A stretch of 53,276 bases of DNA from a bacterium (GTDB lineage Bacteria > NPL-UPA2 > JAUVJM01). Made by a program: the position numbers and the translations under genes. The notes under the pieces are model-generated. The model made no database searches and was not told the origin of the DNA. It saw nothing but the letters and a program-made list of their open reading frames with translations. Where the stretch lies: positions 68,407 to 121,682 of the forward strand of contig JAUWGW010000003.1 in the NCBI GenBank assembly GCA_030606215.1, written 5' to 3'. Shown here piece after piece: positions 1,320-49,614 of the stretch; the stretch's first letter is position 1, and every line of letters begins with the position of its first letter.

Positions 1320-2659
1320 TCTGCGAAGTTTTTCATAATTAGTGCAATGTGTTTGATGCCTTCAATAAAATCAGTAATTCTAATATTTTCATTAGGCGCG
1401 TGTGGGTTAGATTCGGCATAATCCACTCCGACGGAAACACATGGGATATTCAATCTGCCGCAGAGATTGTACATTGGACCTGTTCCTTTTGATGTAGGAT
1501 AAATGACAGGTTCAAGGTCGTAAATTTCTCTTGCAGACTCTATCGCTATGCGAGAAATTTCAGCATCAAGGGGTGTTTTAAAAGGTTTTGCCTCCCCGAG
1601 CTTGTGAATCTGTATTTCCGGAAACTCTTTTTTCAAGTGGTTCTCCAATTTCTTCAGAATGTCATCCGGCTCCTGTTCAGGGACGAGACGGAAATCAATT
1701 TTGGCAGTCGCCTCATGCGGCAGGACTGTTTTTGACCCCGGGCCTGTGTATCCGGCCCTGAGCCCGCAGATGGTGCATGTAGGTTCGCTTAAATCGCGCA
1801 GTATGCGTTTCTCTCTTTTAAGCCCAAGGAGAAAATTCTTAATTCCTAAACTCTTCTTAATCCTTTCATCTTCCAGTGGGATACTCTTAATAACTTTTTT
1901 CTCTTCCTCTGTCAGAGGGACTACATTCTCATAAAAACCGTCAATTAATATTCTTTCCTGCCTGTTTTTCAGACTATTCAGAGCCCAGGTCAGTTTCCAC
2001 GCAGGGTTTGGAATTGTCGTGGCGCGGGAAGAATGAACATCTCTCATCATTTCCTTGACTTCAAGCTCAACATATAAAATACCTTTAACTCCAAGATATA
2101 TACCGGGTCTTCCCTCAAAATTTTTCTCCCCTGACTCCCAAATACAGCAATCAGCATTGAGCAGATTGCTGTTCTCCTGAACTATCTTATCAAGGTTGGG
2201 ACTGCCAATCTCCTCCTCTCCTTCTACAAAAAATATGATATTAACCGGTGGGGTGCCAACCACCTTCAAAAATGCCTCAACAGCAGACAATCTTGCTATA
2301 AGGTCACCTTTGTTATCTGAAACGCCCCGCGCATATAGCTTCCCGTCGACTAATGAAGCTGAAAATGGTTCATAATCCCATTCCGGGAGGGGTTCTGGCG
2401 GCTGGACATCATAGTGGTTATAAAAGAGAATTGTCTTACTTCCCTTCCCTTTTATCCTGCCATATATTGCCGGGAATCCTTCGTCAACCTGAAGATACTT
2501 TACCTCAGCCCCAAGTTCCAGAAGAAAACTTTTAACAAGTTCTCCTGTTTCTCTCATCCCAGCATTTTGGGTTGAGATGCTCTTCTGCCTGCAAAGTTTC
2601 TGCAGTTTCTCTACAAATTTGTCCTTGTTCTCGTCAATATATGCAAAGATATTTTGCAT
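1316..2659 (-). CDS. M20-family metallopeptidase (dipeptidase-like)
   Basis: This is a zinc peptidase of the M20 family (ArgE/DapE/PepV/carnosinase superfamily), probably a cytoplasmic dipeptidase or amidohydrolase. The 447-residue protein shows the metal-binding HYDVQP motif near residue 80, the bridging Asp in GVSDNKGD near 116, the catalytic and metal Glu pair in VEGEEEIGS near 150, and a dimerisation domain insert from roughly 190 to 330 (HSS motif after RDVHSS). Length and motif order match the DUF-free dipeptidase branch that also contains CNDP-like enzymes. It is translationally coupled to aroD downstream. The substrate is not predictable from sequence alone. Confidence 0.88.
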   Translation of the reverse strand: MQNIFAYIDENKDKFVEKLQKLCRQKSISTQNAGMRETGELVKSFLLELGAEVKYLQVDEGFPAIYGRIKGKGSKTILFYNHYDVQPPEPLPEWDYEPFSASLVDGKLYARGVSDNKGDLIARLSAVEAFLKVVGTPPVNIIFFVEGEEEIGSPNLDKIVQENSNLLNADCCIWESGEKNFEGRPGIYLGVKGILYVELEVKEMMRDVHSSRATTIPNPAWKLTWALNSLKNRQERILIDGFYENVVPLTEEEKKVIKSIPLEDERIKKSLGIKNFLLGLKREKRILRDLSEPTCTICGLRAGYTGPGSKTVLPHEATAKIDFRLVPEQEPDDILKKLENHLKKEFPEIQIHKLGEAKPFKTPLDAEISRIAIESAREIYDLEPVIYPTSKGTGPMYNLCGRLNIPCVSVGVDYAESNPHAPNENIRITDFIEGIKHIALIMKNFAE

Positions 2660-2670
2660 TCTTTGGATTT

Positions 2671-2730
2671 TTACTTTGAGACCTTAACCTTTATCTTGAT
2701 TGTTTTCCCGCAGTGAGGACACTTTTGCAC
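2671..2730 (-). CDS. possible 19-residue zinc-knuckle peptide or remnant
   Basis: Immediately after the stop of the EF-Tu-like gene, a GTG start at 2730 opens 19 codons containing CPHCGK followed by an alternating Lys/Val-Ile tail (TIKIKVKVSK). A single CxxC knuckle could be half of a zinc ribbon, or the tail of an ancestrally fused ribbon domain. There is no good ribosome-binding site, so translation is doubtful. It fills most of the gap before the M20 gene. Confidence 0.2.
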   Translation of the reverse strand: MQKCPHCGKTIKIKVKVSK

Positions 2731-2731
2731 T

Positions 2732-2989
2732 TCAAGCAATAACCTTATACACAGTATCGTGCGGCCTGACTCGCTCTTTAACTTTTGTCCCGACGCTATC
2801 TCCTTTCTTTGCGACTTCAATTGCCTCGTGTTCAATCTGCATAGATTCTACTTTCTGCTCAAAGTTTGTTGTGTGTCCCCGAATGGCAATCGTATCTCCT
2901 ACTTTCAGCTCGCCTTCAGAGATCTCAATAACAGCGGCTTCCACATGGCTGAAATATTTTGCAACCTTACCGATTTTTTTCTCTTCCAT
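2732..2989 (-). CDS. EF-Tu domain 2-like small protein (translation factor beta-barrel)
   Basis: This 85-residue protein consists of a single OB-like beta-barrel resembling domain 2 of translational GTPases: IGKVAKYFSHVEAAVIEI, then GELKVGDTIAIRG, and a C-terminal strand block ending VKERVRPHDTVYKV. It has no GTPase domain. Such stand-alone barrels are known as elongation-factor-like proteins and also occur at the C-terminus of U32 peptidases; their role is not established. The start at 2989 is chosen because AGGAGGTGAG lies directly upstream, although the frame stays open 13 codons further. It sits between folC and the M20 gene in the glyA operon. Confidence 0.8.
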   Translation of the reverse strand: MEEKKIGKVAKYFSHVEAAVIEISEGELKVGDTIAIRGHTTNFEQKVESMQIEHEAIEVAKKGDSVGTKVKERVRPHDTVYKVIA

Positions 2990-3049
2990 TTCCCTCACCT
3001 CCTCCTGTGCGAATTGTATCACAACCATCAGTTGGGTGGAAGATTAAAA

Positions 3050-4489
3050 TCAAGCTTGATTACTTTGATCACGTATAAGATTCAAATACTGCAGTATTTC
3101 TCCAACAAGGAAAAAGGAACCCGCAACACAGACTAAGCTCTCATCTTCTGCCTCGTTTAATGCAATTTTCATAGCATCGGCGGAGGAATTTGCTGAGTGA
3201 AGCAGTCTCGTTTTAGATTGCCACGTCGTCCCGAACGTCTTCGGGACTCCTCGCAATGACATATTGGGGTGGGTATTCACGTTTTTACACAGCCTTGCCA
3301 GGTTTTTTTTCAGATATAATGGCTCTGCCGCCCTTGGATTATTCGCTTTTGTAAGAATTATCTTATATGCAATAGGAAATAACTCCTTCCCTACCCCGCT
3401 GATATCTTTATCAGTACAAATTCCGAAGACAAGAACAATCTTTTTCTCCGGGAAAAGTCTTTTTATTGTGGACGCAAGACTTCTGGAAGCGGCTGGATTG
3501 TGGGCACCATCCAGAAGAATTGGGGGTTTTCCGGGAAACAGTTGAATTCTTCCCGGCCAGGTTGTTTTTTTAAGTCCCCTCTTTATGTAAACCGGGTCAA
3601 TCCCGAGAAACTCCGCTGAACAAAGCGCAGCTCCAGCGTTTAGAATCTGGTGTTTTCCGAGGAGAGGAACTGAAAGAAGGTCATAACTATTTTTGGTTCC
3701 ATATACCTTAAACTTACATCCTTCAAGAGAAATGGATTCCTCTTCAAGATAGATTTGATGTGAGCTCGAAATTCCCGGTGAATCATTTTTCATCCGAACT
3801 TCCGTCATTACAGAGTTTTTCTCTCTACATTTCTCAAGCAGAACCTTGCGCACATCCCTTTTCTGAGTAGTGGTTATGACAGGGATTCCTTCTTTTATAA
3901 TTCCGCTTTTCTCCTTAGCAATTGCAACCCGTGTTTCCCCAAGTTCTCCTGTATGGTCAATATCAATGCTTGTGAAAATGGAGTTCAGGGGTGTTACAAC
4001 ATTTGTTGCATCAAGCCTCCCCCCCATCCCGACCTCAAGAACAGCAAAATCCACTTCTTCACTTGCAAAGTAAAGAAAAGCCATCGCTGTATATATTTCA
4101 AAGAAACTTGGTTTTTCAAGACAATCCTTTTTTAGTTTCTCAACTGCAGATTTTATATCTTCTACAAGAATACATATTTTCTCCTCGGGTATCAACTCAT
4201 CTCCGATTCTTATTCTCTCCCTGAAAGAGATGAGGTGTGGGGAGCTATAAAATCCGGTTTTGAAACCAGCTTCCTTCAGAATAGATGTAAGCATCGCTCC
4301 AGTGGAACCTTTACCGTTCGTCCCTGTAATGTGAATAGCCTTGATTGAATTGTGGGGATTACCGAGATAATTTAGAAGTTTTTCGGTACGTGAGATACTA
4401 TATGTTTTCTTATTATATTTTGAAGGAGGTTTTCTCTCATAATCAACAAAACTCTCAAGGTAAGACAGTGCTTCATCATACTTGCTCAT
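3050..4489 (-). CDS. folC: bifunctional folylpolyglutamate synthase / dihydrofolate synthase
   Basis: This is a Mur-ligase-family ATP-dependent enzyme that adds glutamate to dihydropteroate or folates in the cytoplasm. The 479-residue product carries the P-loop GTNGKGS (56-62), the SSPHL folate-loop motif near 83, the EVGMGGRLDATN block near 152 and the DGAHNP motif opening the C-terminal domain. At ~479 residues it is about 40 longer than usual. Part of the excess is a stretch at residues ~410-425 encoded by an in-frame palindromic repeat (see 3216-3262). The insert falls between strands of the C-terminal domain, so activity is probably retained. It follows glyA by 9 bp; linkage to glyA makes a one-carbon/folate unit. 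Confidence 0.93.
   Translation of the reverse strand: MSKYDEALSYLESFVDYERKPPSKYNKKTYSISRTEKLLNYLGNPHNSIKAIHITGTNGKGSTGAMLTSILKEAGFKTGFYSSPHLISFRERIRIGDELIPEEKICILVEDIKSAVEKLKKDCLEKPSFFEIYTAMAFLYFASEEVDFAVLEVGMGGRLDATNVVTPLNSIFTSIDIDHTGELGETRVAIAKEKSGIIKEGIPVITTTQKRDVRKVLLEKCREKNSVMTEVRMKNDSPGISSSHQIYLEEESISLEGCKFKVYGTKNSYDLLSVPLLGKHQILNAGAALCSAEFLGIDPVYIKRGLKKTTWPGRIQLFPGKPPILLDGAHNPAASRSLASTIKRLFPEKKIVLVFGICTDKDISGVGKELFPIAYKIILTKANNPRAAEPLYLKKNLARLCKNVNTHPNMSLRGVPKTFGTTWQSKTRLLHSANSSADAMKIALNEAEDESLVCVAGSFFLVGEILQYLNLIRDQSNQA
3216..3262. repeat. palindromic dispersed repeat inserted in frame inside folC
   Basis: On the plus strand the element begins GATTGCCACGTCGTCCC and ends CCTCGCAATGAC. 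It contains a perfect 8-bp inverted repeat, GTCCCGAA and TTCGGGAC around a 4-base loop (3228-3247). Its ends match the GTCATTGCGAGG ... GACGTGGCAATC repeat that I recall as widespread between genes in many uncultured bacteria. Here it is translated as part of FolC, adding a peptide that reads SLRGVPKTFGTTWQS. A partial relative lies at 5766-5805. Confidence 0.7.
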
Positions 4490-9165: not shown

Positions 9166-9195
9166 GACTGAATATGTTATATCTCCCCTGCTCTA

Positions 9196-9280
9196 TTTTA
9201 CCTCTCCACAACTGTTTATGATTATAGGGGCTAACCACAGTGAAATCAAGAAAATTACAAAAAGACCTTAATTGAATTTT
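9196..9280. repeat. 85-bp direct repeat, copy 1 (carries a promoter)
   Basis: Bases 9196-9280 match 11471-11555 in the same orientation with three differences (9212, 9266, 9273), about 96 percent identity. Similarity fades abruptly on the right and after a few bases on the left. The copy lies just upstream of the DUF5674 gene and includes a strong minus-strand promoter. The two copies are 2275 bp apart and enclose the ATPase and Fic genes. Confidence 0.9.
9221..9249 (-). promoter_or_regulatory. promoter of the DUF5674 gene (inside repeat copy 1)
   Basis: Minus strand TTGATT (9249-9244), a 17-base spacer, then a perfect TATAAT (9226-9221). The leader to the DUF5674 start would be about 50 bases. 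The same hexamers occur in repeat copy 2. Confidence 0.65.
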
Positions 9281-9282
9281 TT

Positions 9283-9311
9283 CTGACAAAGTCACTTTTT
9301 TGTGGTATAAT
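9283..9311 (+). promoter_or_regulatory. plus-strand promoter with no gene behind it
   Basis: CTGACA (9283-9288), a 17-base spacer and a perfect TATAAT (9306-9311) point rightward. No plausible reading frame follows on the plus strand before 9420; the next plus-strand material is antisense to the ATPase gene's 3' end. It could drive an antisense or small RNA, or be a leftover. It begins three bases past the edge of the 85-bp repeat. Confidence 0.45.
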
Positions 9312-9344
9312 TTAAAGTAGTAAGATGAGATCAGTCAGTGAGGA

Positions 9345-9412
9345 AAGTCATTGTTGAGTGTAGTAGAAAAGTGAATTTCCTACTCCTTGAAAGCTTGGAT
9401 TACAGGTCATCC
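9345..9412 (-). pseudogene. relic of a pgk 3' end
   Basis: On the minus strand ACCTGTAATCCAAGCTTTC reads PVIQAF and aligns with the last codons of the intact pgk gene (PVIQAL...). AGCTTGGATTACAGGT on the plus strand matches the pgk end (12318-12333) at 15 of 16 bases. Differences fall largely at third codon positions, and a further TTGTTGAGT(G/T)TA block matches downstream of both. It lies between the ATPase stop codon and repeat copy 1, with 9313-9344 unexplained. Confidence 0.4.
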
Positions 9413-9419
9413 CTTTTTT

Positions 9420-10559
9420 CTATATAGATATATTTCTCTGGAGCCATATTTTAAAAAACGGATCTGCAATATAATATTCTGCCTCATCCTTATGCACCAT
9501 GCCATTTTTTATCAAGGCCCTTAGTGATGCCTGCACTGATGAACTTGTACCTAAGTTATACTTAAGGACCGAATCCTTGGAAAAAACCTCTTTTGTTTGC
9601 GAAAGGGCATAAAGAACAGACCTCTGGTGCAGACTTGCCGAATCATATAAACTAAAAAAGAGCTCGTTTTGTGTGTGCATTATTGTATCTATCGCTTTTG
9701 TTATAGCTTCATTACTTACCTTGTGTTTTGCCAGTGACCAGACATTAAAAGATAGTAGCTGAATGTTATATGGAATATTGCTTGAAAGCTCTACAATCTC
9801 CTGAGCCAGTTCTTTCGGAATAACCTTTCCAGAATTGCGAAAACGCCTTCTTACAAAATTTTCCATTTGTTTCCTATCTATCACCGAGATAGGATAAACT
9901 GCCGCAGATTTATAAAGAGCTCTCTCGGAGTTATTGAACATATCCGTAATCATGTGCGTTTTGCTTCCCATGAATATGTAGCAAACATCATTATGGTGCT
10001 GAATAAACGAGCGCACTTTTCGTTCAAAAGCTTTTCCATCTAAGCCTTCTATCTCCTGAAATTCATCAAATACCACCACCACTCTCTTTTTATAAGAAAA
10101 GGCTATTTTTTGCGGCATTTCAAAAACTTCTTCCAGAGTTCTTTCTAAATTAGCTCTGGTCTTGGAGAAATCGAAAGATACTTTCCATATTCCACTCTGG
10201 TCAACCTCAAAACTCGGCACAATTCTTCTAAAGAATCTTGATATTTTCTCCAACCTTTCTTTCCTTGTGATAAGGGCATTACTGATACTGTTGGAGTAAA
10301 CCTCAATGAATTGTGCTTGTGAAGTTGCCTTCTGAATATCTACATAAACAGCAATAACTTCTTTTCTTTTTGCCAGTGCCTCCATTACATTTTTAATAAG
10401 TGAGGTTTTACCCAGCCGCCTGTATGAGTAAATGAATAGATTTTGTCCAGCTTTAATATGCTCGGCAATATCTTTAATTTCCCTTTCTCTATTAGCAAAA
10501 CAATCTCCTGTAACTACCTCTCCAAATTTGAAAGGATTGGACTGGATAGACATTCCCAT
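9420..10559 (-). CDS. archaeal-type AAA ATPase (PF01637-like) with winged-helix tail
   Basis: A STAND/AAA-type P-loop ATPase of the kind first described from archaea. The 379-residue protein has an N-terminal NPFKFGEVV and NREREI box, Walker A YSYRRLGKTSL (44-54), Walker B VVVVFDEFQEI near 160, a sensor strand reading IFMGS, and a C-terminal winged-helix-like region from about 300. Such ATPases are common in mobile and defence-related contexts, but their targets are unknown. AAGGAG precedes two closely spaced ATGs (10559 and 10553). It follows fic by 143 bp on the same strand, and the two lie between the copies of an 85-bp repeat. Confidence 0.85.
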   Translation of the reverse strand: MGMSIQSNPFKFGEVVTGDCFANREREIKDIAEHIKAGQNLFIYSYRRLGKTSLIKNVMEALAKRKEVIAVYVDIQKATSQAQFIEVYSNSISNALITRKERLEKISRFFRRIVPSFEVDQSGIWKVSFDFSKTRANLERTLEEVFEMPQKIAFSYKKRVVVVFDEFQEIEGLDGKAFERKVRSFIQHHNDVCYIFMGSKTHMITDMFNNSERALYKSAAVYPISVIDRKQMENFVRRRFRNSGKVIPKELAQEIVELSSNIPYNIQLLSFNVWSLAKHKVSNEAITKAIDTIMHTQNELFFSLYDSASLHQRSVLYALSQTKEVFSKDSVLKYNLGTSSSVQASLRALIKNGMVHKDEAEYYIADPFFKIWLQRNISI

Positions 10560-10702
10560 AATCTCCTTAACTACACCAACTTGCTTTATACTATTTACTA
10601 TAATGCAATTTAGTATAATACACCTGCAATGTCAAGAGAAATTTTATAGCTACAAGTTTCACACCAAATATTTTGCCGGAAGAGGAGGGAGAGAAAATTG
10701 CT

Positions 10703-11455
10703 CTATTTTAACTCTTTTACAAGTCTTAAGTATTCTCTCAGGCTTTCACATACCATGCTTGAGATAAAATTTACGAACAGTTGATTGTCCGTTCTATTTG
10801 CCCTTCTCAAAGCATTTATATAATCGTTTCTTAGTATTGGGGGAATTATTGTTATAACATAGCCCGTTTGCAATAGAGCTAAATTCATTAGAAGCCTTGC
10901 AGTTCTACCGTTTCCATCTACAAATGGGTGTATATCAGCTAATTCTTTATGGAGAATAGCTGAGTATTCTATAGAGTGATATTTTCTTTTAAGTTCTGGA
11001 ATCCTGTTAACAAATTTCTCCATCAATCCCTTTATTTTATCAGGAGCAGGCGGGATGTAGTCTGAGCCTGTTATGATAACTTTGACCTTCCTATATATCC
11101 CCGCATTATCAGGTGCAATACGATAGTAAAATAGCCTGTGTAAATCCAAGATGTCCTTTTCTGTTATGGTCTTGCCCTTAGCAAGTTTATACAGCAGGTC
11201 GTAAGCTTCACTATGTCCCATAGCCTCATAATGGTCTTTTAATGGTTTCCCCCCGATAGTTATACCATCTTCCAGAACTATCTTAGTTTCTGTTTCCGTT
11301 AGGGAGTTGCCCTCCAAGGCATTGCTTGAATAGGTTAAGCCTATTCTGTAATACTCCTTTAATTGCTTTAAAATGTTTCTTGATAGAGGTCTATATTTAT
11401 CCAGTTCCTTTTTAAGTTCATCTGCTTCCTTTATTCTATTTGTGAAGTTTATCAT
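10703..11455 (-). CDS. Fic-domain protein (AMPylase-like) with N-terminal inhibitory motif
   Basis: Fic proteins transfer AMP or other nucleotide moieties to protein hydroxyls. The 250-residue product has the catalytic loop HPFVDGNGR (176-184) complete with His and the Arg that binds phosphate, and a SNALEG motif at 44-49 that fits the [S/T]xxxE[G/N] inhibitory helix of class II Fic proteins, so the enzyme is probably auto-inhibited. The C-terminal helix bundle may hold a DNA-binding region. The ATG at 11455 follows AGAGGAGTGG; the frame extends 23 codons further into the repeat, which is unlikely to be translated. Transcription probably starts in repeat copy 2. Confidence 0.9.
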   Translation of the reverse strand: MINFTNRIKEADELKKELDKYRPLSRNILKQLKEYYRIGLTYSSNALEGNSLTETETKIVLEDGITIGGKPLKDHYEAMGHSEAYDLLYKLAKGKTITEKDILDLHRLFYYRIAPDNAGIYRKVKVIITGSDYIPPAPDKIKGLMEKFVNRIPELKRKYHSIEYSAILHKELADIHPFVDGNGRTARLLMNLALLQTGYVITIIPPILRNDYINALRRANRTDNQLFVNFISSMVCESLREYLRLVKELK

Positions 11456-11470
11456 AACCACTCCTCTTAT

Positions 11471-11555
11471 TTTTACCTCTCCACAATTGTTTATGATTAT
11501 AGGGGCTAACCACAGTGAAATCAAGAAAATTACAAAAAGATCTTAATCGAATTTT
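11471..11555. repeat. 85-bp direct repeat, copy 2 (carries a promoter)
   Basis: Near-identical to 9196-9280, same orientation. It starts one base past the stop codon of the RelE-type toxin gene and runs almost to the ribosome-binding site of fic, so the whole toxin-to-fic gap is made of repeat. Confidence 0.9.
11496..11524 (-). promoter_or_regulatory. promoter of fic (inside repeat copy 2)
   Basis: Minus strand TTGATT (11524-11519), 17 bases, TATAAT (11501-11496). The predicted leader to the fic start at 11455 is about 35 bases with AGAGGAG at the right distance. Confidence 0.65.
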
Positions 11556-11556
11556 C

Positions 11557-11889
11557 TTAAGTTTTTTGTATTCTCCTGAGTACACGTGCCTGAAGAAGTT
11601 CCTGAAGGTCCCGGCGGCCATCAAATATGCCTATGACATAAAGATTTTTGTCTTGCTGAAGGTAGACGATTCTATACGGCTTATAAAATACTTCTCTGTA
11701 TTCGTAAGTATTTATTCTCTTTAATTCAGGTACTATCCTTCCTCTTTGAGGTGCTTTGCCAAGGCTTAGGATAGTGGTCTTCAGGCGGAGAAAGATATGT
11801 TCAGCGGCTTCGGGCGGGTCGTGTTCCTCAATATAGTTGCAGATTTCTTCTATATCAAGTTCAGCATCTATGGTTAGATAGACATTCAC
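11557..11889 (-). CDS. RelE/ParE-superfamily toxin
   Basis: A 110-residue toxin of the RelE/ParE fold, which acts either as a ribosome-dependent mRNA interferase or a gyrase poison; the sequence does not decide. Visible are the N-terminal LTIDAELDIEEICNYIEE helix, the central PQRGRIVPEL turn and the C-terminal YREVFYKPYRIVYL and VIGIFDGRRDLQELL strands, which hold the basic residues of the family. It overlaps the antitoxin gene by four bases (ATGA), the standard arrangement. Immediately downstream lies repeat copy 2. Confidence 0.9.
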   Translation of the reverse strand: MNVYLTIDAELDIEEICNYIEEHDPPEAAEHIFLRLKTTILSLGKAPQRGRIVPELKRINTYEYREVFYKPYRIVYLQQDKNLYVIGIFDGRRDLQELLQARVLRRIQKT

Positions 11890-12167
11890 TTTTTCTGAAC
11901 ACGCCTGCGACGATTAATATTTGTAAATGCCTTCACAGCCGGCTTAATTTCACCAGATGTTATAGCAGATATGCCCATAGCTGCTATTTTAAGCATAGTT
12001 AAGGAGTCTTGGATTTTCTGATATGATTGTATATCTTGAACAACCATTTTAGCTTCACCATTATGGGTGATAAACATTGGACTATGGGATTCAGAAACCC
12101 TTGACAGGACATCAGATGCGTGTGTTTTAAGATAGGTAATAGGTTTGATGTTCTTGCTTAGCGTCAT
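11886..12167 (-). CDS. Phd/YefM-family antitoxin
   Basis: A 93-residue antitoxin whose N-terminal half shows the Phd/YefM pattern: an opening strand-helix IKPITYLKTHASDVLSRV, then PMFITHNGEAKMVVQDIQSYQKI. This half binds DNA and represses the operon; the basic C-terminal tail (NINRRRRVQKK) is expected to wrap and neutralise the toxin. It is the first gene of the pair, with a strong GGAGGGAG site ahead and the toxin overlapping its stop. A promoter with an overlapping inverted repeat lies upstream. Confidence 0.9.
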   Translation of the reverse strand: MTLSKNIKPITYLKTHASDVLSRVSESHSPMFITHNGEAKMVVQDIQSYQKIQDSLTMLKIAAMGISAITSGEIKPAVKAFTNINRRRRVQKK

Positions 12168-36579: not shown

Positions 36580-36723
36580 CTATTTCCTGTCAATCGATTT
36601 AATTTCCTGAATCATCTGTTTCGATCTGGCTCTACCTTTTGGCTTGTGTTTGGGTTCCCAGCCGTGTTTCCACGGTTTGCACATGGCACATCCCGAAGAT
36701 TTTTTGTCTTTATATTTTGCCAT
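36580..36723 (-). CDS. CxxCKPWKH mini-protein, left copy (47 residues)
   Basis: ATG at 36723 starts MAKYKDKKSSGCAMCKPWKH, a small basic protein with one CxxC next to a Lys/His/Trp-rich segment. I recall similar short proteins (CxLCKPHK) in many uncultured bacteria, of unknown function. The first 32 codons match the right copy at 49519-49614 with five transitions in 96 bases; the last 15 residues differ, ending IQEIKSIDRK. The two copies lie on the same strand and bracket the CRISPR-Cas island. Confidence 0.6.
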   Translation of the reverse strand: MAKYKDKKSSGCAMCKPWKHGWEPKHKPKGRARSKQMIQEIKSIDRK

Positions 36724-37045: not shown

Positions 37046-37585
37046 TCACTTAATCTCTAATAATATTTTATTATAGATATCTTCTGTGCCGTATTTCTGA
37101 GAGATACTCTTAAATTCTTCGCTTTTGATATCTATATTGTTATACTTTACCAAATCGATAATATCCATCAGGTCCTTATGCTCACGTTGCGAAGGATTAT
37201 TCTTTATTGAGTGGAGCTTAAGTGCTATCAGATGCAAAAGAGATGGAATAAGAAACTTCTGGCTGGCGATAGTAATCTCTTTGGCATCTTTTATAACTTT
37301 ATCTAACGTATTTTTGTCAACAAACATGAAATCAATATCCAGAATATAGTGTTTTACACTTTTTAACCTGCTAAACAACTTCCTCCTGTTATCCTCTTTA
37401 TAGCCTTCTTTTTCTAACAGAACTAATGCTTTCTTGAAATCATTCTCTGTTGTCAAAAAGTCTATATCTGCAGTTTGGTGCGATACGTTATAATAATTAA
37501 CCGCAAAACCACCTATTAGAACAGCGACTGTATGTGTCTTTTTTAATATAGCTGAAACTAAATGAAATTCTGTCTCATATCTCAT
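37046..37585 (-). CDS. minimal nucleotidyltransferase-fold protein (AbiEii/DUF6036-like)
   Basis: A 179-residue protein with a nucleotidyltransferase core: LIGGFAVNYYN followed by TADIDF, the G-G...hDhD pattern that binds metal and NTP, then a second acidic strand ILDIDF and a helical C-terminal half (SLLHLIALKLHSIKN). Similar proteins act as toxins or as antitoxins in nucleotidyltransferase modules (AbiE, MNT-HEPN). The module lies between the island's left mini-protein copy and the CRISPR array. The short gap to the array (37586-37706) holds no gene. Confidence 0.75.
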   Translation of the reverse strand: MRYETEFHLVSAILKKTHTVAVLIGGFAVNYYNVSHQTADIDFLTTENDFKKALVLLEKEGYKEDNRRKLFSRLKSVKHYILDIDFMFVDKNTLDKVIKDAKEITIASQKFLIPSLLHLIALKLHSIKNNPSQREHKDLMDIIDLVKYNNIDIKSEEFKSISQKYGTEDIYNKILLEIK

Positions 37586-37706
37586 CTCTTTTGTTTCCTC
37601 ATAATTGCCTATAATCGAATTTTACCTGAAATAAGTCTATTTAGCAATCGTTTTTTGGAATAAATTTTTTGGGATTAAATAGTGAGGAGCAACGGCCAAT
37701 TTGGGA

Positions 37707-38114
37707 GTTTCAATCCTTGTTTTAATGGATCGTCCTCTCAAACCCCTGCCACAAGAAGCAGGTGTGCAAGGAGAGTTAAGTTTCAATCCTTGTTTTAATG
37801 GATCGTCCTCTCAAACGAGAACAATCAGGGATGCCTATTATCTCATCATCTGAGTTTCAATCCTTGTTTTAATGGATCGTCCTCTCAAACAGGGCTCTGT
37901 TGACACAGATAAATTTGCACTACCCTTTGTTTCAATCCTTGTTTTAATGGATCGTCCTCTCAAACTAAACTAAATCCAGCCCCGAAATATGTCCATGCAG
38001 GAGCGTTTCAATCCTTGTTTTAATGGATCGTCCTCTCAAACTTTGATTTAAGGTATTGTTACTTCTTTCCGTATCGGGTTTCAATCCTTGTTTTAATGGA
38101 TCGTCCTCTCAAAC
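37707..38114 (-). CRISPR. CRISPR array, 6 identical 37-bp repeats, 5 spacers
   Basis: Repeats at 37707-37743, 37780-37816, 37854-37890, 37929-37965, 38005-38041 and 38078-38114, all identical. On the plus strand they begin GTTTCAATCC and end CCTCTCAAAC; on the minus strand they read GTTTGAGAGG ... ATTGAAAC, the conserved tag at the 3' end of type I-B-like repeats, so the array is transcribed on the minus strand. Spacers are 36, 37, 38, 39 and 36 bases. No degenerate end repeat is seen. The cas genes lie on the right, with leader at 38115-38286. Confidence 0.98.
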
Positions 38115-38898: not shown

Positions 38899-40165
<1,267 letters not shown>

Positions 40166-40175
40166 TTTAAAATCC

Positions 40176-40206
40176 TCACCACCGTCCCAAATCCCCGCGA
40201 CACCGA
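40176..40206. repeat. cas6 3'-end duplicate, left copy (31-bp direct repeat)
   Basis: TCACCACCGTCCC ... GACACCGA is identical to 41079-41109. On the minus strand it reads KSVSRGFGTVV, the C-terminal motif of Cas6, and continues RILKCS before a stop that overlaps the cas1 start. Homology extends a little beyond the 31 bases with small gaps. This is what remains of cas6's original junction with cas1. Confidence 0.85.
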
Positions 40207-40218
40207 TTTTCTCCCAGC

Positions 40219-40806
40219 TTAAGTCAAAGGCCCTGCTTCATCAAGTGCTTTTTCCAACAAGTCAGAAATGCCCAGGTCTTCAGCCCATTGTTTAAGATAG
40301 ACCATGTTGAGTTGTTCCCCCTGCACCTTCAAAACACCCAGCACATCACTCCATTGACGGTCTGAGATACATCCTCCAATCTTATACCACTTCAATTTAT
40401 TGATAATAATATCTTCCGGTGTGGCAAAGAAAAGCTGTCGTGGGCTATCTTCAGAAACAGGCTTCGGAAATCGCCGTAAAAAAGCCTGTTTGTCAAAGGG
40501 CTGGTCCTTGAGAATAAACACATCTACTTTGAACATTGTCTCAAGATGAATAAGGTTGAAGGATGACTGGTGCTTGATTGCATCACGGATCATTTCAGCG
40601 TCTACATAAAACTTTTCTTTTAGGGATTCTTCAATAGGAGATATTTGTTCCCGCTTAATATCAGCTACAATGTCCACATCTACCGTCGCACGAGCGACAC
40701 CAAAAGCAGAACTTGCTAAAGAGCCACCTATATGGTAGGCAATACCAAGTTTTTCAAAAACCCTCACAACTTTGAGACTGATCTCAATAATATCGGGATG
40801 TTTCAT
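40219..40806 (-). CDS. nucleotidyltransferase-fold protein inserted in the cas operon
   Basis: A 195-residue protein with IGGSLASSAFG followed by ATVDVDIVAD (the G-S and Asp-x-Asp of the nucleotidyltransferase active site), a third acidic strand FKVDVFIL and a C-terminal helical part with ATPEDIIINKLKWYK. It resembles DUF6036-type nucleotidyltransferases and AbiEii-like toxins. It starts one base after the partner gene ends, so the two are a coupled module. It is unrelated in function to known cas genes and lies exactly between duplicate cas6 ends. Confidence 0.8.
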   Translation of the reverse strand: MKHPDIIEISLKVVRVFEKLGIAYHIGGSLASSAFGVARATVDVDIVADIKREQISPIEESLKEKFYVDAEMIRDAIKHQSSFNLIHLETMFKVDVFILKDQPFDKQAFLRRFPKPVSEDSPRQLFFATPEDIIINKLKWYKIGGCISDRQWSDVLGVLKVQGEQLNMVYLKQWAEDLGISDLLEKALDEAGPLT

Positions 40807-40807
40807 C

Positions 40808-41071
40808 TTACCGGCCCCCCTTTTCTTTTACTAAATCCCTAATTCGTCGAGCCAAAGACGCATCTTTATATAAAAGTGAAACAAATCGTTGTATGCGAGC
40901 ATCCAGCGTTTCCTCAGGATAACGCTCACAAATTCCTTGCCAGGATAATTGACGCGTGGTCTTGCTCAGCGAAACAACCATCTGCAAACGTCGAAAGATA
41001 GTCGCCTTGCGAATCAACCCTATCTGAAACTGCTCAGCTTTCCTATGTGTGTCAGAAGATAATGTTTTCAT
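40808..41071 (-). CDS. 87-residue partner of the nucleotidyltransferase
   Basis: A short, strongly basic helical protein (TLSSDTHRKAEQFQIGLIRKA, LQMVVSLSKTTRQLSWQG, DARIQRFVSLLYKDASLARRI). No catalytic motif is visible and I cannot name the family, although proteins of this appearance commonly precede a nucleotidyltransferase gene, as here. It probably serves as the antitoxin or DNA-binding partner. Its ATG overlaps the last codons of cas6 by four bases, so its translation is coupled to cas6. Confidence 0.6.
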   Translation of the reverse strand: MKTLSSDTHRKAEQFQIGLIRKATIFRRLQMVVSLSKTTRQLSWQGICERYPEETLDARIQRFVSLLYKDASLARRIRDLVKEKGGR

Positions 41072-41739
41072 TTAACCTTCACCACCGTCCCAAATCCCCG
41101 CGACACCGACTTCCCCAGACCAAAATAATCAGGTATTTCAAAATTAACCGAAAAACTTCCCAGAAACCCAAGCATGGGAGTGCGTTTGAGCGAGGTTCTA
41201 ACTTCTTTCATATTGATAATATTTGCCTTAATAGGTTCACAAACTGTATAGCCCAACCCCTTAGACATAGAAATAATATTGCCAACTAATATTTTTGCCA
41301 ATAACTCTTTTTTTTCCCTCTGACCGCTAAGTCTTCTATATTTCTCATAATTCCTTTCATTCAAAGCAAGCCATGGGGTGAGGAAGGAATAAGGGAAAAT
41401 TGTTTTAATTGTGCCATAGAGTTCCTCTTGAAACACTATATCCTTTTTAAGAATCTTATATTTCTCATAGGGTAGTGCAATTGTTTCTCCAACCAAATGA
41501 AGATTAGAGATAAGTTTTGCAGCCTTTCCAATGCCTACTAATAAACAGTTTCTTTGAATACATTTATATTGAACAAGAGGATATCTATACTTGACCGTAC
41601 CATCTTCACTATGTTGGTGAAGCAATATTTCATTTGGATACAGGCCAGCAATGGTTCCCCGTAAGTCTTTTGATTGGAATCCTAACTTATCTATTGACCT
41701 ATCAAACTGTAGACAAACAACAGAACTCAATACTTTCAC
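41068..41739 (-). CDS. cas6: CRISPR-associated endoribonuclease Cas6
   Basis: Processes the CRISPR precursor RNA within repeats. The 223-residue protein belongs to the Cas6 RAMP family with the Gly-rich C-terminal loop GLGKSVSRGFGTVVKVK. N-terminal ferredoxin-like strand CLQFDRSIDK is followed by RGTIAGLYPNEILLHQHSEDG, in which a His (residue ~42) is a candidate catalytic residue. The end of the gene is duplicated beyond the nucleotidyltransferase module at 40176-40206. Its place after cas3, rather than before cas8b, is unusual for type I-B. Confidence 0.88.
   Translation of the reverse strand: MKVLSSVVCLQFDRSIDKLGFQSKDLRGTIAGLYPNEILLHQHSEDGTVKYRYPLVQYKCIQRNCLLVGIGKAAKLISNLHLVGETIALPYEKYKILKKDIVFQEELYGTIKTIFPYSFLTPWLALNERNYEKYRRLSGQREKKELLAKILVGNIISMSKGLGYTVCEPIKANIINMKEVRTSLKRTPMLGFLGSFSVNFEIPDYFGLGKSVSRGFGTVVKVK
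41079..41109. repeat. cas6 3'-end duplicate, right copy (31-bp direct repeat)
   Basis: Identical to 40176-40206 and lying inside the intact cas6 gene, over the codons for the KSVSRGFGTVV motif. The 903-bp period between the two copies equals the nucleotidyltransferase module plus one repeat. Confidence 0.9.
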
Positions 41740-49476: not shown

Positions 49477-49614
49477 CTAATGTCTCTCCTTAGTTTCCTT
49501 GCCCATCTGCTTTGGTCCGGTTCTATCTTTTGGCTTGTGTTTGGGTTCCCAGCTGTGTTTCCACGGCTTGCACATGGCACATCCCGAAGATTTCTTGTCT
49601 TTATATTTTGCCAT
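49477..49614 (-). CDS. CxxCKPWKH mini-protein, right copy (45 residues)
   Basis: ATG at 49614 starts MAKYKDKKSSGCAMCKPWKH and continues SWEPKHKPKDRTGPKQMG to TKERH. Nearly identical to the left copy at 36580-36723 over the first 32 residues. The overlap with the 18-residue leader peptide (TGATG) and the four-base spacing to the next gene suggest coupled translation of all three. Function unknown; the CxxC with clustered Lys, His and Trp could bind metal or nucleic acid. Confidence 0.65.
   Translation of the reverse strand: MAKYKDKKSSGCAMCKPWKHSWEPKHKPKDRTGPKQMGKETKERH

Follow-up and report, generated by a model that had tools for sequence, protein, structure and literature searches.

'Insertion with long target duplication' is known for restriction-modification (RM) genes (Nobusato 2000; Furuta 2010), and its summaries in PMC3874152, PMC1643837 and PMC3031569 present small addiction-type units that have no known mobile element and lie between long direct repeats of the target, variable in length and on the order of 100 bp. 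In the literature searched, this mode of entry is discussed for restriction-modification genes and no description of it was found for toxin-antitoxin (TA) cassettes. MenAT1 of Mycobacterium tuberculosis (Rv0078B-Rv0078A) contains a small partner adjoining a nucleotidyltransferase of about 195 residues, MenT1, which lengthens the acceptor ends of tRNA and is kept in check by its small antitoxin. The toxicity of MenT1 needs D41, K137 and D152, and its T39 is auto-phosphorylated (PMC10435456, PMC11375011). AbiE or AbiEii-type systems show a polymerase-beta-type nucleotidyltransferase with an upstream partner, and CreTA safeguards the type I-B system beside cas6 in Haloarcula hispanica (PMC9458426).

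The locus described here shows, like CreTA, a TA module (putative in this case) beside cas6 in a type I-B cas operon; unlike CreTA, which is RNA-based and repressed by Cascade via CRISPR-like repeats, it encodes two proteins and no such repeats were seen. With the RM units, as these are summarised in the sources above, it shares the small addiction-type cargo without a known mobile element and the long direct target repeats of variable length, and it differs from them in that the cargo is a putative nucleotidyltransferase TA pair, found in many phyla and here at a cas boundary, and in that some of the repeats are shorter. The cassette and some of its homologues show a target repeat on both sides, one copy of which completes an intact gene, repeat lengths from 31 to 283 bp, and no transposase in the unit. 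These features support an insertion that duplicated the cas6 3' end, and we consider it probable (roughly 0.7) that a MenAT1-like TA cassette entered the cas6/cas1 overlap by insertion with long target duplication.

The cas6-cas1 boundary and its 31-bp repeat

The window, that is, the whole stretch of 53,276 nucleotides that was analysed, contains, on its minus strand, a type I-B operon with the gene order cas8b, cas7, cas5, cas3, cas6, an 87-aa gene, a 195-aa nucleotidyltransferase gene, cas1, cas2 and cas4, and a CRISPR array with six repeats at 37705-38114 in the same locus. The two genes between cas6 and cas1 are as the preliminary description gave them. In transcriptional order, the features of this boundary are:

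41068..41739, minus strand: cas6 (Cas6b), intact (Pfam Cas6b_C 3.9e-44, Cas6b_N 3.5e-20; PADLOC Cas6 1.5e-70)
41079..41109, minus strand: right 31-bp repeat copy, terminal part of the intact cas6 (SVSRGFGTVV)
40207..41078, minus strand: apparently inserted segment, 872 bp; period 903 including one repeat copy
40808..41071, minus strand: 87-aa partner, putative antitoxin (conserved partner family upstream of homologous nucleotidyltransferases)
40219..40806, minus strand: 195-aa MenT1-like nucleotidyltransferase, putative toxin (alignments, model, best PDB match MenT1)
40176..40206, minus strand: left 31-bp repeat copy, apparent cas6 3'-end remnant
39167..40165, minus strand: cas1 (Cas1b) (Pfam Cas_Cas1 3.9e-81)

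The direct repeat is perfect over its 31 bp (40176-40206 and 41079-41109), exactly at the coordinates first reported, and both copies encode the Cas6 C-terminus. The right copy finishes the intact cas6 (KSVSRGFGTVVKVK), the stop codon of which overlaps the partner ATG by 4 bp, and the final 42 bp of cas6 are made up of the right repeat and the cassette junction. The left copy, read in the cas6 frame, gives 17 protein letters (not shown) and has its stop at 40158-40156 inside cas1; its overlap with the cas1 start would be 10 bp, as for an intact cas6 end, which agrees with what had been proposed for this copy. The 872 bp between both copies consist of 7 bp, the partner gene, 1 bp, the nucleotidyltransferase gene and 12 bp, being almost purely two reading frames, and show a G+C content of 42% versus 33-38% in the cas genes.

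Apart from the CRISPR array, an exact direct match of at least 25 bases recurs at just three places in the 53-kb window, and the 31-bp repeat is one of them. Gapped alignment of both repeat sites scores 66, while none of 300 shuffles exceeds 26; this excludes a chance origin of the repeat. The alignment continues weakly both ways, to the partner ATG in one copy and to the cas1 ATG in the other, an extension which is not significant by itself and which suggests that the cas1 start region was perhaps part of the duplicated target. An assembly or chance artefact is hardly credible as a source of the arrangement: the genome is assembled in 34 contigs, and assemblers can be misled by short exact repeats, but the repeat score is far above the shuffles, and the equivalent diverged repeats (85-95% identity), which come from independent loci and independent assemblies, cannot result from false joins.

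The nucleotidyltransferase and its partner

Neither cassette protein is named by Pfam, NCBIfam or PADLOC. The model of the nucleotidyltransferase (pLDDT 95) has MenT1 as its closest PDB structure (Foldseek E 4e-6; VIA Z 16.4, with the next family, ANT(2''), at 13.0), and the active-site residues are G28 S29, T41, D43, D45, D95, K137 and D154. Among 41 homologues, T41, D43 and D45 are conserved in at least 90% and K137 and D154 are invariant; by position, motif and conservation, T41, D43, D45, K137 and D154 correspond to T39, D41, D43, K137 and D152 of MenT1. By its modelled fold and catalytic residues the protein is MenT1-like, which backs the toxin-like character attributed to it from its sequence. 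The 87-aa partner is predicted to form four helices (model pLDDT 93) and belongs to a family with the motif DTxPxxE, conserved directly upstream of the nucleotidyltransferase in most of 80 homologous loci. Fold and sequence searches with the partner gave nothing above noise and no recognisable PDB relative, and no sequence link to MenA1 was found; by analogy with the small antitoxin of MenT1, this four-helix protein is a putative antitoxin. Since MenT1 is the best structural match and the catalytic residues agree, the pair is most likely a TA cassette.

The cassette is comparable to MenAT1 in the small partner adjoining a nucleotidyltransferase of about 195 residues, in the fold, and in the catalytic residues, which are identical and differ little in position, and differs from it in the identity, which is about 16% in the aligned region, in the partner, which has no detectable sequence kinship, and in the lack of a Pfam DUF1814 match. 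Neither Pfam nor NCBIfam gives the nucleotidyltransferase a DUF1814/AbiEii match above cut-off, and it is accordingly not classed with DUF1814. The cassette resembles AbiE or AbiEii-type systems in the polymerase-beta-type nucleotidyltransferase with its upstream partner, and it differs from them in this missing AbiEii profile match and in the partner, which is short and four-helical and has no recognised domain.

Homologous cassettes and duplicated gene ends

Homologous nucleotidyltransferases are present in 32 of 145 related genomes, and an alignment-based search of genome contigs gave more than 500 relatives, and 80 of these loci were retrieved; a single-protein scan of the genome contigs gave no match, the alignment query being the one that matched. 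The cassette has no match in the phage records, viral contigs gave no confirmed relative, and six plasmid records contain distant homologues (32-39%). The neighbours of the retrieved cassettes are unrelated genes, and the cassette is not cas-specific.

In several of these loci the cassette is bracketed by a duplicated gene end, and in the clear cases one repeat copy belongs to the full-length neighbour gene (gene names other than those of cas genes were judged from translations, not from profile searches). Duplicated 5' ends are those of lpxA (about 120 bp, L010) and a hydrogenase maturation protease gene (43 bp, L012), both in the first set, and, among the 80 loci, of hsdR (110 bp, 95%, L103), an ABC ATPase gene (82 bp, L099) and a gene beginning MLFDESIL.. 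(77 bp, L078), and duplicated 3' ends are those of ridA (63 bp, L069), a DUF1841-like gene (94 bp, L070) and a sensor kinase gene (283 bp, 71%, L052). Repeat length is 43-283 bp in the clear homologous cases and 31 bp at cas6-cas1, and 5' gene ends are about as frequent among the duplicated targets as 3' ends. L104 was left out, being a module-in-module duplication with the start of the partner gene inside its repeat. In L103 the hsdR 5' end occurs three times (1867-3667), one interval with an IS200-like transposase gene and the next with the TA cassette, as if one target had been used twice. In L093 (1-1267) a homologous cassette sits within a CRISPR array, with the third repeat on one side and the last visible one on the other.

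Entry of the site-specific integrase type at a gene 3' end, as initially suggested, would explain that the gene end is rebuilt, as at tRNA-type attachment sites. This part of the preliminary description was not borne out: a recombinase gene is absent, the duplications range from 31 to about 280 bp, 5' ends are among the targets and a common core sequence among these was not seen, which makes integrase entry very improbable. The gene-end repeats of variable length (43 to 283 bp) fit long target duplication, not integrase entry. A Cas1-Cas2 origin of the 31-bp repeat, the length of which is about that of a CRISPR repeat, was rejected because the homologous modules have other repeat lengths.

A uniform test, with 900-bp flanks and a direct repeat of at least 40 bits, gave flank repeats in 17 of 77 cassettes of this nucleotidyltransferase family versus none of 30 NUDIX loci (Fisher p = 0.002), several of the 17 matches being other repeats of simple, dispersed or CRISPR type (L049, L076, L057, L105 and the CRISPR repeats of L093). 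Clear gene-end repeats alone give a smaller count and a weak excess over the 30 NUDIX loci, and about 78% of the homologous modules have no detectable flank repeat. A narrower test gave 14/77 cassettes versus 16/700 shifted windows in the same loci (p = 1e-7), where the matches of the shifted-window control cluster in few loci with internal repeats. Other TA-like families also show flank repeats (NTP_transf_8, 4/16; ParE, 7/29; PIN, 4/30), and all TA-like sets pooled differ from the NUDIX loci (0/30), which share their genome set with the ParE and PIN loci, with Fisher p = 0.0017. One canonical TA locus (L186) has a 77-bp perfect repeat. In L196 (643-1784) the start of a glycosyltransferase gene is present three times, with a spacing of about 550 bp, around a ParE-type locus, which suggests successive TA insertions.

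Between cassettes at different loci that share about 70-82% identity, similarity is lost no farther than about 30 bp ahead of the partner ATG and about 20 bp from the nucleotidyltransferase stop in most pairs, and the mobile unit appears to be just the two genes. These sharp ends may be partly an effect of divergence, given the fast decay of conservation outside reading frames; the L068/L074 pair (87%) aligns over 5 kb, which indicates that shared flanks would show in recent relatives. The recurrence of this scar, at many unrelated genes and across many bacteria, suggests that TA genes can spread in this way without a transposase. A duplicated gene end with a cassette that ends at its own stop codon is a readable signature that can be surveyed at scale, and such a survey could quantify TA mobility, put dates on insertions and lead to the machinery involved.

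The boundary in related operons and the proposed insertion

The cas6-cas1 junction without an insert, which the preliminary description had proposed to look for in related loci, is found in G212, where the cas6 stop codon abuts the cas1 ATG directly (L131, L152); G212 is a distant relative, not a sibling strain, with a Cas6 about 42% identical. In two more distant loci (G277, G358) cas1 also comes straight after cas6. This empty order and the same type of scar around the homologous modules back the earlier proposal that the insertion rebuilt the cas6 3' end. Other related loci do not hold one conserved pair without duplicated flanks, the case that would have spoken against an insertion, but different pairs: G007 shows a 63-aa gene and a DUF6036 nucleotidyltransferase gene, G285 a nucleotidyltransferase similar to the DUF6036 one of G007, G093 and G123 a 106-aa gene and an NTP_transf_8 gene, G196 a 91-aa gene and TumE, and G144 an AbiEii-like gene. 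In G046, Cas6 is reduced to a 37-aa C-terminal remnant ahead of cas1. G093 contains a second cas6 end (62 bp, 85%) after the NTP_transf_8 gene, and G123 has, between its inserted pair and cas1, a weak fragment resembling cas6 (score 39 versus a shuffled maximum of 32); the phylum-wide cas6 searches around these two covered 3-4 genomes each. A duplicated cas6 end was sought and not found in G007, G196, G285 and G144. Among cas8, cas7, cas5, cas3 and cas6 of the related operons no inserts were seen where these genes were covered. As read from these gene orders, the cas6-cas1 boundary is a recurrent landing site for TA-like pairs, for which tolerance and selection are both possible reasons. 23S_rRNA_IVP-family proteins are encoded between cas1 and cas2 in G123 (L148 18456-18851) and between cas2 and cas4 in G196 (L149 10935-11303), and ORFs similar to them follow cas1 in G144 and G285.

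The second cas6 end of G093 also bears on capture by homologous recombination, in which a cassette beside a donor cas6, carried on a circle or fragment with the conserved GKSVSRGFG-coding stretch, would have recombined with the resident cas6 and left two copies. The repeat core encodes the most conserved part of Cas6 and, in G093, another module (NTP_transf_8) is likewise bracketed by a cas6-end repeat, as capture would predict. However, the same module duplicates the ends of many non-cas genes, where donor homology is not expected, and no homologous cassette beside another cas6 was found in the genomes searched; we regard capture as unlikely.

The filling of the boundary by different TA-like families (G007, G285, G093, G123, G196, G144), together with the absence of inserts inside cas8-7-5-3-6, could also point to a dedicated CRISPR guard, a role that the preliminary description raised as possible, that is, an addiction pair kept at cas6-cas1 and punishing loss of the operon, with CreTA as a precedent. 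Variable unrelated families fit a tolerant insertion site at least equally well, however, and the fetched homologous cassettes adjoin unrelated genes, no relatives of this operon's Cas proteins being found within 3 kb of 80 homologous modules. Near the cassette no CRISPR repeat copy was found (the exact repeat was sought, degenerate ones not exhaustively; the array is at 37705-38114), and the sequence data give no sign of coupling between the cassette and CRISPR activity. A guard role is accordingly doubtful and this claim is not upheld, although the repeated filling of cas6-cas1 by unrelated TA-like pairs makes the idea that 'TA locks CRISPR in place' directly testable.

For the preferred reading, insertion with long target duplication, the target would have been opened over about 31-50 bp at the cas6/cas1 overlap of the type I-B operon, the cassette joined in, and gap filling would have given a cas6 end at either flank. 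Cas6 would thereby stay whole, cas1 would keep its start region and the cassette would join the operon, where it was probably retained because the toxin punishes loss and the duplication makes the insertion harmless. Toxicity with its neutralisation, a staggered opening whose gaps were filled, and retention through addiction are all inferred; staggered break with gap filling, template switching and recombination with a circle are candidate routes between which the sequence cannot choose. A wider reading, tentative and clearly less likely than the insertion itself, is that two-gene TA cassettes of many families, with nothing else attached, move as units in their own right: a general insertion route that needs no transposase would leave long variable target duplications and so repair the entered gene, and at cas6-cas1 of type I-B operons, as a recurrent landing site, unrelated TA cassettes would link the effector half of CRISPR to its adaptation half.

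The window shows further repeats and TA-like genes. A long direct repeat (9177-9280 and 11449-11555, 53 bp exact within about 105 bp) brackets two genes, one ATPase-like (9420-10559) and one Fic-like (10703-11524), and a ParE-type TA pair (11557-12167) adjoins it; this repeat pair (9177-11555) is possibly a second insertion with target duplication. A 125-bp direct repeat (36599-36723 and 49490-49614, about 87% identical by eye) brackets the entire CRISPR-cas locus and may be a dispersed element or the mark of the locus entering as a unit. A second nucleotidyltransferase (NTP_transf_5, 179 aa) is located at 37046-37585, just past the CRISPR array.
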